From the NCBI GenBank assembly GCA_016209105.1, contig JACQWR010000004.1, positions 124,001-188,000 on the forward strand: a stretch of DNA of 64,000 nucleotides. The letters are read 5' to 3'. How positions within the stretch are numbered: the stretch's first letter is position 1; every line of letters starts with the position of its first letter. The translations under genes and the position numbers were made by a program. The DNA is from Deltaproteobacteria bacterium (lineage in GTDB: Bacteria; Desulfobacterota; Syntrophia; Syntrophales; JACQWR01). Positions 21,720 through 28,322 of this stretch are shown in pieces. Under the pieces are notes generated by a model. It saw only the letters and a program-made list of their open reading frames with translations. It made no database searches and had not been told where the DNA came from.

Positions 21720-21917
21720 ATGAATACCAAGAAAGCCACAGCAAAAAAATCAGTTGCCAAGAAAACAGCAAAGGCGAAGGTAAAGAAAGTCGCGGCAAAA
21801 AAGCCGGTTGCGAAGAAGAAGGCAGCGGTAAAGAAAGCCGCGGTCAAAAAACCGGTTGCGAAGAAGAAGGCAGCGGTAAAGAAAGCCGCGGCAAAAAAGC
21901 CGGCCAAGAAAGCCTGA
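21720..21917 (+). CDS. Histone H1-like Lys/Ala/Pro-rich protein
   Basis: A 65-residue protein made almost only of Lys, Ala, Val and Pro, with tandem AKKPVAKKKAAVKKAA units like the C-terminal tail of histone H1 and bacterial H1-like proteins. It presumably binds DNA as a nucleoid protein. GAGGGGAGG precedes the ATG. The repeat units (GTTGCGAAGAAGAAGGCAGCGGTAAAG, seen twice) are near-identical in DNA, so the copy number is likely to vary among strains. There is no folded domain. Confidence 0.8.
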   Translation: MNTKKATAKKSVAKKTAKAKVKKVAAKKPVAKKKAAVKKAAVKKPVAKKKAAVKKAAAKKPAKKA

Positions 21918-22171: not shown

Positions 22172-23526
<1,355 letters not shown>

Positions 23527-23530
<4 letters not shown>

Positions 23531-25317
23531 GATTCAGCGCCTCTCTTTTCATCAAGCGGGAGTACGATCGTCATGCGTGTCTCCGTGCCCGGGATACTAA
23601 CCACGCTGATCTCGCCGTCGTGGGCTTCGATGATTTTCTGAACGATGGCGAGTCCCAGGCCCGTCCCCGAAGGTTTCGTCGTAAAGTACGGATCGAATAT
23701 ATGGGGCAGGTCTTTCTGATTGATTCCCGGGCCGGTATCGGAGATGGTCAATCGAATGGTGCGGGAGTCGTTCCGGGCCAGGGTGACGGACAACGTTCCG
23801 CCCTGCTGCATGGCCTCCAGAGCGTTCAGAAAAAGATTCAACAGAACCTGTTTGATTTTGTCGGCGTCCATCATCACTTCAGGGAGATCCGCGGGCAGTT
23901 CCGAACGGATCGTGACGTTCTTTCCGCGGGCATCGTTCTCTATCACTTTCAGGGCGTGCTGGATTACCGTTTGCAACGCTGAGGGTTTCCTGTCCATGGC
24001 AACGGGGCGGGCGAATTCAAGCAGTTGACCGATAACCCGGTTCAAGCGTTCCACCTCCTGAACCATAATGTCGGCCGTTTTCCCGTCATCGAGATTGTCG
24101 CGGTAGCGTTCCTTGAAGTAGGTTGCGAAGCCCTTGATGGAACTCAAGGGGTTTCTTATCTCATGCGCGACGCCGGCCGCCAGGCTTCCCAGAGAGGCCA
24201 GGTGCCGGCTCCGGGCGATTTCCTTTTTCAGGCGTTGGACCTCCGTCATGTCCCGGAAAAGGAGTATATATCCGAGAGAGGCGCCGCCTTCTTCCTTAAG
24301 GTGCGTGGCAATTACTTCAAGGGGGATGATTTTTCCTTCTGCGCCGGTGCAGTCTATTTCCCGTTCGATAACTCCCCGTCCTGCTTTTAGCATACCGACC
24401 ACTTCCCTCAACTCCGGCGGCAGGGTATCTGCGCCTCTTTTTCCCACAACCTCCAGGGCAGTGCGCTGGAGCACCGTTTCGGCAGCCTGATTGAGGGACA
24501 TGACGGTCCCTTCGCTGTCAATGGCTACAAGACCTATGGGCATGTTCTCCACCAGGTTGTCGGAGAAGGCCTTGATTCGGGAAAGAGAATGCCTTGCGGA
24601 GCGGTATCCCTGGGCAAAGAAAAGAGAAATCATGCCGGAAAAGCCGATAAAGAGCAGCAAGAGCGCCATCAGGATGGTATGCTTTGAGGCTTCCTTCCGT
24701 GCGGCCTCAATGGGCCCCATGTTCAAGCCGATAAAGACAACCCGACGGGATGCCAGGCGTTCATCCGTTCTTATTTTTTTTCCGGAGGAGCGCTCGCCGC
24801 CGCCGGACGGCATACCGGACAATTCCTGAAGCGGTCGCTCTTCCGGTGCAAAACGGCGGAAGACCTCAAAGGTGTCTACGCCATCCGGATTTGGTACCCG
24901 GCGCCACTCGATCGTTCTTGATTGGGAAATACGGGCGAGGTCAAGCTCCTCCCCATACGTTTCGCCGATCAGGGAGGGGTCGCTGTCGGCGAGGATTGTC
25001 CCCTTGCCGTCCGTGACGATCAGGTAGTCCACGTCCGGCTGTTGAGCCGTTTCCATAAGGAGTTTCTGGAGCCGGAAAAAATCCCCGTGTCCGGTCGTAA
25101 GTTCCGTTCTGGCGCCGGCTTCAAACGATCTGATGAGGGCGTCCCCCTTTTCCAGGAAGACCTGGATGGTGTGTTCCCGCTGTTTGAGGATATTGTCCAG
25201 GATCATAAAAATAAAGATCGGCGCAAGGACGATAATAGACCCGATAATAAGCCAGGGGGGGATGCTCATCCATGCCTTTGCGGTTGCAAGATTTTTCCTG
25301 TTTTTCATCGGTTTCAC
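23527..25317 (-). CDS. ZraS-like sensor histidine kinase with PAS domain
   Basis: Two membrane helices (about 17-38 and 210-235) bracket a periplasmic sensor region of about 170 residues. A PAS domain follows (SFDN to about residue 370). The HisKA box SLAAGVAHEIRNPLSSIKG closely resembles that of ZraS. ATP-binding boxes (DTGPGI, GTGLGLAI) are complete. It is first in the operon and overlaps the regulator gene. The signal may be zinc or envelope stress by analogy with ZraS; no obvious His/Cys-rich zinc site is visible in the sensor region. Confidence 0.88.
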
Positions 25318-25565
25318 ATCACTGCAAAATAAGGACCATGACGACGGCCTTCTCCCGGAGAGACTTGGCGAACCTTAGCTGGTACTCGCTACGGCATTGC
25401 CCGGCCCCGCAGCGGCCCACCGCAACCGAACTGCGCTTGCCACCCGTTCAATTCGGCAGCGAACGCATTCCCCGCACAGCGCGTACGGAGGGCTTCAATC
25501 CCGGTCATCCTGTATATTTACTATCCAGCAGTATACACCTTCCGGATACTTGGTATCCACTTTTT

Positions 25566-25605
25566 CTCTCATTATAAAGAGCGGCTTGAGACTGCTAAAT
25601 GAGAG
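25566..25605 (+). promoter_or_regulatory. Candidate upstream activator site (inverted repeat)
   Basis: CTCTCATT (25566-25573) and AATGAGAG (25598-25605) form a perfect 8-bp inverted repeat, 32 bp centre to centre (three helical turns). It ends about 50 bp before the -24 element, a normal place for an NtrC-type dimer site. Binding by the adjacent regulator is inference. Confidence 0.45.
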
Positions 25606-25656
25606 TTGTAGGGAAATAATTAGTTATGCTCATGTGTTACACAACAGCAGAAGGTT

Positions 25657-25673
25657 TTGGCATGACAGTTGCT
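25657..25673 (+). promoter_or_regulatory. Sigma-54 (-24/-12) promoter of the zraP-like gene
   Basis: TTGGCATG-ACAG-TTGCT matches the sigma-54 consensus TTGGCACG-N4-TTGCW at all but one position, with the GG and GC exactly 12 bp apart. It predicts a transcript start near 25684 and a 5' leader of about 46 nt with AAAGGAG before the ATG. Confidence 0.8.
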
Positions 25674-25729
25674 CTTGCTGCTTACCGTCAAGGAAAAACA
25701 AAAATACATTTCCAAAGGAGAACAGAATC

Positions 25730-26293
25730 ATGAAAAAGATAACCTTAACACTGGCACTGGCGGGAGTTCTTCTCCTGGCCGTCACTACGTCCGACCTTTT
25801 TGCCATGGGCTATGGCTGGGGCGGATGGACGTGGGGCGGCCGAGGCGGGGGGCCCTGCGCCGACGGAACCGGACCGGGTACGTTAGGCCTCGGCCTTACC
25901 ACCGAACAGACGAATAAAATGAAAGAGCTTCGCGACGCCCACCTGAAGGAGGTGACGCCCATCCGGGACAAGATGTTCAACAAGAGCAGCGAACTGAAAT
26001 TGCTCTGGTTGCAGGCGAATCCCGATCGCGACAAGATCAATGCCGTTCAAAAGGAGATGCGGACGCTGCGGGATAAAATGCAGGACGAGATGACCGCTTA
26101 TCGGTTGGGAACGCTCAAGGTTCTTACCCCGGAACAGCAGGCAAAATACCAGGCGACAGGGGCGCGGCAGGGTTATGGTCCCGGCCTCGGCTTTGGTGAC
26201 GGATGCGAAGACGTCGGCCGTGGCGGTATGAGAAGAGGCATGGGCCATCCCGGCTGGTACGGCGGCGCGCACATGGGCAGGGGCGGCTATTAA
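25730..26293 (+). CDS. ZraP-like periplasmic Spy/CpxP-family protein
   Basis: Secreted protein: signal peptide MKKITLTLALAGVLLLAVTT with cleavage near the Phe-Ala of DLFAMG. The mature part has a Gly/Trp-rich start, then a helical LTxxQ-type region (LTTEQTNKMKELRDAH and LTPEQQAKYQ), the hallmark of ZraP/Spy/CpxP chaperones, and a Gly/His/Met-rich tail that may bind metal. The ORF track starts 111 codons too early; ATG 25730 has AAAGGAG. The sigma-54 promoter upstream and the divergent NtrC-type pair make it the likely target of that pair. Confidence 0.85.
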   Translation: MKKITLTLALAGVLLLAVTTSDLFAMGYGWGGWTWGGRGGGPCADGTGPGTLGLGLTTEQTNKMKELRDAHLKEVTPIRDKMFNKSSELKLLWLQANPDRDKINAVQKEMRTLRDKMQDEMTAYRLGTLKVLTPEQQAKYQATGARQGYGPGLGFGDGCEDVGRGGMRRGMGHPGWYGGAHMGRGGY

Positions 26294-26459: not shown

Positions 26460-26528
26460 AAACGGGCAAATTTACCTAAAAGAGGTTTCCTGAAAATGAC
26501 CGTTGGCGTGGGAAGAGAGTCGGCTGCG

Positions 26529-26597
26529 ATGAAAAAAATATTGACCCTGCTGGGCCTCGCCCTCCTTTGTTACCCACCGCCTGTCTTTTTTAGGTAA
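26529..26597 (+). CDS. leuL: Leucine-rich leader peptide of the leu operon
   Basis: A 22-codon frame, MKKILTLLGLALLCYPPPVFFR, with six Leu codons among residues 5-13 (ttg, ctg, ctg, ctc, ctc, ctt). A purine-rich site (GGGAAGAGAG) precedes it. Its last codons (CCCACCGCCTGTCTTTTTTAGGT) can pair with the 5' arm of the terminator that follows (ACCTAAAAGGCCGCGGGTGGG). Ribosome stalling at Leu codons would leave this segment free to form the antiterminator; a ribosome reaching the stop would cover it and let the terminator form. That is classical attenuation, just upstream of leuA. The short frame also resembles a signal peptide, but its context argues for a leader. Confidence 0.7.
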   Translation: MKKILTLLGLALLCYPPPVFFR

Positions 26598-26624
26598 CCG
26601 GCAAACATACAAGAAAGATCGGAC

Positions 26625-26668
26625 CTAAAAGGCCGCGGGTGGGAAAAACCGCGGCCTTTTAGTTTTTT
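26625..26668 (+). terminator. leu operon attenuator terminator
   Basis: Perfect 14-bp stem CTAAAAGGCCGCGG / CCGCGGCCTTTTAG with loop GTGGGAAAAA, then TTTTTT. It ends 97 bp before leuA. The 5' arm is complementary to the 3' end of the leader peptide frame, so an alternative antiterminator structure exists. Confidence 0.85.
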
Positions 26669-26765: not shown

Positions 26766-28322
26766 ATGGATTCAGCGCGGGACAGGGTATTTATCTTTGA
26801 TACGACGCTTCGGGACGGCGAACAGTCGCCGGGGGCAAGCATGAACCAGGATGAAAAGCTCCGGCTTGCCCGTCAGCTGGAAAAAATGGGGGTGGATATT
26901 ATCGAAGCGGGATTTCCTGTTGCCTCGGAGGGGGACTTTGCCTCTGTCCGGCAGATTGCCCGGGAAATCAGAAAGCCGCAGATCGCCGCTCTGGCCAGGG
27001 CCAATCCGGGCGATATTGACCGGGCATGGGAGGCCGTTGCCGAGGCAGCGCATCCCCGGATTCATACCTTTATCTCTTCCTCCGACATTCACCTCAAGTA
27101 TCAGCTCAAAAAAACGAGGGAGCAGGTGCTGAACGAGGCCCGCGCCGCCGTTGCGTACGCCTGCTCGCTTTCCGTGCCCGCGGGCGGGAATGTGGAATTC
27201 TCGCCCATGGATGCGACGAGAACGGATCGGACATACCTCTGCGATATCGTGGAGGCGGTGATTGAGGCAGGCGCCGCGACGGTAAACATACCCGATACGG
27301 TAGGTTACGCGATCCCCGAAGAATTCGGCGCTCTGATAGCTTATCTCTTTGAGAAGGTAAAGAACATACGGCAGGCTGTCATTTCCGTCCACTGCCATAA
27401 CGACTTGGGGCTTGCCGTGGCGAACTCCCTGGCGGCGGTAAAAAACGGCGCCCGCCAAGTCGAATGCACGATCAACGGCATCGGAGAGCGCGCGGGAAAC
27501 GCGGCCATGGAAGAAGTGGTGATGACCCTTCAGACGCGGAAGGACATATTCGGCCTCTACACAGGGATTAAGACGGAGCGAATCCACCAGTCGTCCAGGC
27601 TCCTGACCCAGATCACCGGCGTTGCCGTACAGCCGAACAAGGCGATCGTGGGGGCCAATGCTTTTGCCCATGAGTCGGGCATTCACCAGGACGGCCTCAT
27701 CAAGGAAAAGATCACCTACGAGATCATGACGCCCCAATCGGTAGGCATCTCGGACAGCCATCTCGTTCTCGGGAAGCATTCGGGCCGTCACGCTATCGCG
27801 GAGCATCTCAAAAAGATGGGATATAACTTGACGAGAGACGAGGTGAATCGGGTCTTCGTCCGCTTCAAAGAGCTGGCCGATGTCAAGAAGGACCTTTTTG
27901 ACGAGGATATCGAAGCCATCATTTCTGAGGAGGTGTTCCGCCTGGAGGATAAGTACCGGCTTGTTTACCTGAATGTTGTGAGCGGCAACGTGGCCATTCC
28001 CACGGCGACCATGCAGATGGAGGTGGAAAAGGAGGTCATTCAGGATGCCGGTTTCGGCATCGGGCCGGTGGATGCCACATTTGACGCCATCCGGAAGATC
28101 ACGCAAACCAATTATTCCCTCCTGAAGTATGCCGTAAACGCGGTGACGGGTGGAACGGATGCCCAAGGCGAGGTCATGGTGCAGCTGAAGTACGACGGCC
28201 ACACCGTGACGGGACGGGGAGCGCACCCCGACATCATCGTGGCATCGGCGAGGGCTTACATCAATGCGCTGAACCGTCTGGATCGTCTCCGGACGGACAG
28301 GAAGAAAGTTCCGGTTGAATAA
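26766..28322 (+). CDS. leuA: 2-isopropylmalate synthase
   Basis: First committed step of leucine synthesis, condensing acetyl-CoA with 2-oxoisovalerate. The HMGL barrel starts with [15 protein letters not shown]; the metal-site HCHNDLG and the NGIGERAGN block are present. Residues about 390-510 form the LeuA regulatory domain for leucine feedback. 518 aa is the normal long form. AAGGAGGGAG precedes ATG. It is the first structural gene after the attenuator and is followed by leuC. Confidence 0.94.

Follow-up and report, generated by a model that had tools for sequence, protein, structure and literature searches.

The 64,000-nucleotide stretch of DNA analysed here (the window) derives from a relative of Syntrophus and very likely carries a ZraPSR-type envelope-stress circuit of the Syntrophales, built from an NtrC-type regulator, a double palindrome, sigma-54 and a zraP-like chaperone. 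The system as such is known, and the circuit represents a variant of it in this lineage, one whose operator is newly defined. Its genes, their domains, the predicted fold, the promoter and the candidate operator, along with their conservation, can be read from the sequence; for the steps that would join them, we infer that a membrane kinase responds to disturbance of the envelope by phosphorylating the NtrC-type regulator. The regulator would bind two GGATA-N5-TATCC palindromes, three helical turns apart, that precede the -24 element by about 85-140 bp. Once bound, it would enable sigma-54 RNA polymerase to form an open complex at the -24/-12 promoter of the zraP-like gene, whose product would act as a secreted Spy/CpxP-fold chaperone that shields proteins of the periplasm and possibly exerts feedback on the kinase. 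An earlier sequence-only reading of this DNA had proposed a divergent circuit of the ZraSR/ZraP kind, served by a sigma-54 promoter, and the domains, the fold and order-wide conservation all support it.

The divergent kinase and regulator genes

The ZraS-like histidine kinase is encoded on the minus strand (23527-25317), with either a GTG at 25317 or an ATG at 25308 as its candidate start codon, and bears PAS, HisKA and HATPase domains (Pfam) along with two predicted membrane segments that flank a periplasmic sensor. The start of the ZraR-like regulator gene, on the same strand (22172-23530), overlaps the kinase stop. Its product displays the receiver, sigma-54 AAA+ and Fis-type HTH domains (Pfam) of an NtrC-type enhancer-binding response regulator, with GAFTGA readable in the translated AAA+ domain, and shares 58% identity with E. 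coli ZraR. The best NCBIfam models are ZraS for the kinase (416 bits, below the cut-off of 479) and ZraR for the regulator (596 bits, below the cut-off of 760). The NtrC-type pair expected to diverge from the ZraP-like ORF is thus present, with fitting Pfam domains. On the divergent side of 51 related loci a kinase is found in 44, accompanied by a regulator in 41, and several of the loci lacking them are contig ends or paralogues.

The zraP-like gene and its product

The zraP-like ORF (25730-26293, plus strand) encodes a 187-aa protein predicted to be secreted and to adopt the ZraP/CpxP/Spy fold, followed by a Gly-rich C-terminal tail. The Pfam families Metal_resist (5.6e-15, 56 bits) and LTXXQ (2.1e-10, 41.7 bits) both match above their cut-offs. 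Among NCBIfam models, the CpxP-family model ranks first and ZraP second, each far below its cut-off (29.7 bits against 200 for the ZraP equivalog). The AF2 model is confident in the helical core only (85 residues above 90), and the leading PDB matches of this core are ZraP (3lay; TM by target 0.89), followed by CpxP, Spy and CnrX. No match in this PDB fold search passed an E-value of 0.001, the best reaching 1.1e-3; the ranking is nevertheless consistent, as the search of the PDB by sequence likewise places 3lay first. The sequence-only reading had described a Gly/His/Met-rich tail unlike that of E. coli ZraP, a distinction that does not hold, as E. coli ZraP ends in PRGAGMGMGYGGCGGGGHMGMGHW and is equally Gly/Met/His-rich.

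The helical hairpin fold, the LTxxQ motifs and the envelope-stress setting are shared with CpxP and Spy, and with the CnrX metal sensors. CpxP and Spy themselves are expressed from sigma-70 promoters under OmpR-type regulators, whereas the gene described here is paired with an NtrC-type regulator and sigma-54.

The sigma-54 promoter

The predicted -24/-12 promoter upstream of the zraP-like gene, TTGGCATGACAGTTGCT (25657-25673, plus strand), bears GG and GC elements 10 bp apart in a TGGCA-N6-TTGC context with a candidate enhancer upstream, and would place the transcript start near 25684. Conservation was assessed across 52 loci, namely the window and 51 orthologous loci from related Syntrophales genomes; the counts come from kindred loci and hence are not independent. 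In 42 of the 52 loci TGGC-N7-TTGC lies in the 250 bp preceding the gene, where shuffling would give 0.18, so that the promoter noted earlier is borne out in both spacing and conservation.

A sigma-54 promoter for the kinase operon was considered and rejected: TGGC-N7-TTGC in the direction of the kinase is absent from the window and found at only 2 of the 52 loci. Sigma-70-like matches on the kinase strand stand at chance level (2, against 1.3 expected).

The orthologue promoters also display an A/T tract at -45 to -41 and TT at -21/-20 relative to the -24 GG, in fixed spacing. These conserved columns are reminiscent of an IHF site, and the best score of the IHF consensus in the gap between enhancer and promoter (7.19) barely exceeds that of shuffled sequences (6.86).

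The candidate enhancer palindromes

The most strongly conserved candidate enhancer is the proximal palindrome CGGATACTTGGTATCCA (TGGATA-N5-TATCCA; 25543-25559), supported by column conservation, whose GGATA-N5-TATCC core spans 25544-25558 and whose centre lies 108 bp upstream of the -24 GG. The core is exact in 30 of the 52 loci (0.0 in shuffles) and present with at most one mismatch in 50 (0.75 in shuffles). A second palindrome, GTATATTTACTATCC (25512-25526), lies 32 bp farther upstream in the window, and a palindrome at exactly this distance, with up to 2 mismatches in 10 positions, is found at 38 of the 52 loci. Between the two, column conservation reveals a half-site at -13 to -7 relative to the proximal palindrome, with the consensus GGATAC in relatives and GTATAC in the window (25531-25536); both the distal palindrome and the half-site are degenerate in the window. 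Across the loci, the proximal centres mostly fall 84-108 bp upstream of the -24 GG and cluster near 85, 95 and 105, with a helical phase resultant of about 0.62 at 10.5 bp. Such clustering fits a requirement for a particular face of the helix, although it is only suggestive as the loci are related. The arrangement recalls E. coli glnAp2, where two palindromic NtrC enhancers, 32 bp apart, precede a sigma-54 promoter by about 100-140 bp; the spacing of the pair is alike, and the recognition sequence, signal and target differ.

These palindromes lie just upstream of the element to which the sequence-only reading had assigned the role of regulator site, and were overlooked there. That element, the inverted repeat CTCTCATT-N24-AATGAGAG (25566-25605), is indeed present and three helical turns wide, its perfect 8-bp arms (25566-25573 and 25598-25605) having centres 32 bp apart. 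Its proposed role as an enhancer was rejected for want of conservation, since matches with up to 4 mismatches in 16 positions occur at 2 of the 52 loci, where shuffles give 1.4. By simple arithmetic, the chance that a perfect 8-bp repeat with a 0-30 loop turns up somewhere in an intergenic region of about 400 bp is roughly 0.2, and the 25566-25605 repeat is probably fortuitous.

Linkage points to the ZraR-like regulator as the protein that would bind the palindrome, an assignment against which stand the 17 strong sigma-54 activator domains encoded in the same genome. With so many activators available, the palindrome might serve another repressor or activator while the divergent pair has its targets elsewhere or uses the 25566-25605 repeat, which likewise spans three turns, and the frequent proximity of the palindromes to the kinase start in relatives (60 bp or less) would allow them to serve the kinase operon too. 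This is nonetheless quite improbable, as the double palindrome stays linked to the adjacent pair and keeps its distance from the -24/-12 element, whereas the repeat is not conserved. Under the favoured assignment to the ZraR-like regulator, the same proximity suggests a further role: because the palindromes of relatives are often separated from the kinase start codon by about 60 bp or less (about 195-227 bp in the window), the regulator may possibly repress its own operon, unlike the activation known from E. coli.

Comparison with ZraPSR and the nature of the signal

In E. coli, ZraR is the sigma-54 regulator of zraP and zraSR, and the system has an envelope-stress role beyond zinc (PMC7657598). 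The locus described here shares with ZraPSR of E. coli and Salmonella the divergent zraP and zraSR order, the sigma-54 promoter of zraP, an NtrC-type regulator, a kinase of the same family, the ZraP fold and a Gly/Met/His-rich tail. It differs in its candidate operator, which is GGATA-N5-TATCC rather than the GAGTAAAAATGACTCGC inverted repeat (ZraR box) of E. coli; indeed, GGATA does not occur in the E. coli zra region and no GAGTAAAAATGACTCGC-type repeat occurs here. The E. coli region also has -24/-12 candidates in both directions, whereas the zraSR-side sigma-54 promoter that would confer positive autoregulation is absent here, and the kinase here has a PAS domain.

A strict equivalent of ZraPSR, in which zinc or copper would be sensed and the ZraP-like protein would buffer the metal, is an unlikely reading of these features. 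The gene arrangement, the fold and the top kinase and regulator models are all of Zra type, the metal-binding CnrX has the same fold, and most orthologues of the zraP-like protein retain two Cys residues, the first close to the N-terminus and the other in the tail. However, the candidate zinc ligands of E. coli, namely the N-terminal HGGHGMW of ZraP and the His/Met/Cys-rich stretches of the ZraS periplasmic loop, are absent here; relatives have on average 1.8 His and 0.07 Cys in this kinase loop, where E. coli has 5 and 1; and the His residues of the tail show no conservation in alignments. Zinc as the signal is therefore unsupported, since the His-rich candidate ligands of E. coli are not shared. 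Moreover, in Desulfovibrio alaskensis a gene annotated as zraP went down under copper (PMC8836040). Envelope stress fits better than zinc, because the operator of relatives also precedes DegP- and TolC-like genes. The comparison suggests a broader envelope-stress design that keeps the chaperone, the arrangement and the promoter while the operator, the autoregulation and the candidate metal ligands vary, and of which the enterobacterial 'zinc' circuit would be one branch.

Distribution of the operator and a possible regulon

The named relatives in an alignment-based scan were Syntrophus, Smithella and other Syntrophaceae or deltaproteobacterial MAGs. In a partly independent named set, both elements occur at 53 of 79 loci and at none of the most distant ones. 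The sequence TGGATA-N5-TATCCA occurs 0-2 times per genome in 12 related genomes, mostly adjoining zraP genes, and its reversed control has zero occurrences in these genomes. Further operator sites precede ZraP paralogues (genomes G019 and G013); in G028 the operator is followed by a TolC-like gene that has a -24/-12 element of its own, and in G035 it stands near a TolC-like gene. Across the phylum, palindrome and promoter are found together in 21 of 395 genomes, with one match for the control. Outside the Syntrophales, ZraP homologues follow the combination in four genomes belonging to other families, in one of which it also precedes a DegP-like protease, and in one Syntrophales genome it precedes a DUF3300-like gene; several of the remaining matches look like chance. 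In the source genome, only the zraP site is convincing; a looser pattern of half-site and promoter was tried there for defining a regulon and rejected as too loose.

Two other arrangements were seen beside these. In G016 (L125, C26, about 1502-2836) an operator lies upstream of an ECF-sigma-like gene adjoined by an anti-sigma-like gene, the operator being without a clear -24/-12 element; the product names given for these genes, the TolC-like genes and the ZraP paralogues were read from translations rather than from HMM results. In G150 (L248, L265, C117), outside the order, a double GGATAC operator and a -24/-12 element precede a DegP-like protease, and the same elements precede a tandem-domain ZraP-like protein about 4.6 kb from the DegP-like gene.

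The GGATA-N5-TATCC double enhancer may mark an undescribed sigma-54 envelope-stress regulon of the Desulfobacterota, with a ZraP-type core to which DegP-, TolC- and DUF3300-like genes and possibly an ECF sigma factor have been recruited, and with possible autorepression; this proposal is tentative, its chances being somewhat short of even. The sigma-54 regulons described in Desulfovibrio (PMC4641369; PMC3333781) are similar in their large NtrC-type two-component sets and palindromic sites within the same phylum, and the main text of these two papers, as distinct from their figures, mentions neither ZraR, zraP nor the GGATA motif. The Desulfobacterota have many orphan sigma-54 activators, and for one of these a candidate operator and promoter are now proposed.

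The missing rpoN gene

The sequence-only reading had called the circuit complete. A conserved circuit is indeed present, and its completeness was overstated, as no RpoN match is found in the source assembly (2.71 Mb in 29 contigs, 92.3% complete). It is extremely improbable that the species has lost rpoN and that the promoter is a relic, a reading for which this missing match speaks. Of 41 genomes searched, 36 have rpoN; the source genome is among the misses, yet the only other genome of the same family retains the gene, within a kdsA-kdsC-lptC-lptA-lptB-rpoN-hpf-ptsN-hprK-rapZ block. No convincing orthologues of this kdsA-to-rapZ block occur in the source assembly, where the matches look like paralogues (23-40% identity). 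The absence of rpoN is probably an assembly gap: a missing contig is preferred because the whole block is absent, yet a Kdo transferase, which needs that pathway, and the 17 sigma-54 activators remain.

Neighbouring features of the window

Downstream of the zraP-like gene, the region 26496-26664 looks like a leucine attenuator. A short Leu-rich ORF, MKKILTLLGLALLCYPPPVFFR, begins at 26529, upstream of a leuA-like ORF at 26766, and is followed by a near-perfect G+C-rich hairpin of 14 bp with a T run, and then by leuA-, leuC- and leuD-like ORFs. Rfam gave no match for 26496-26664; the hairpin folds, and the stretch as a whole is no more stable than shuffled sequences (z -0.98). On the other side of the kinase and regulator genes, at about 21720-21916 (plus strand), lies a short Lys/Ala-rich protein of AAKKP repeats that reads as histone H1-like.
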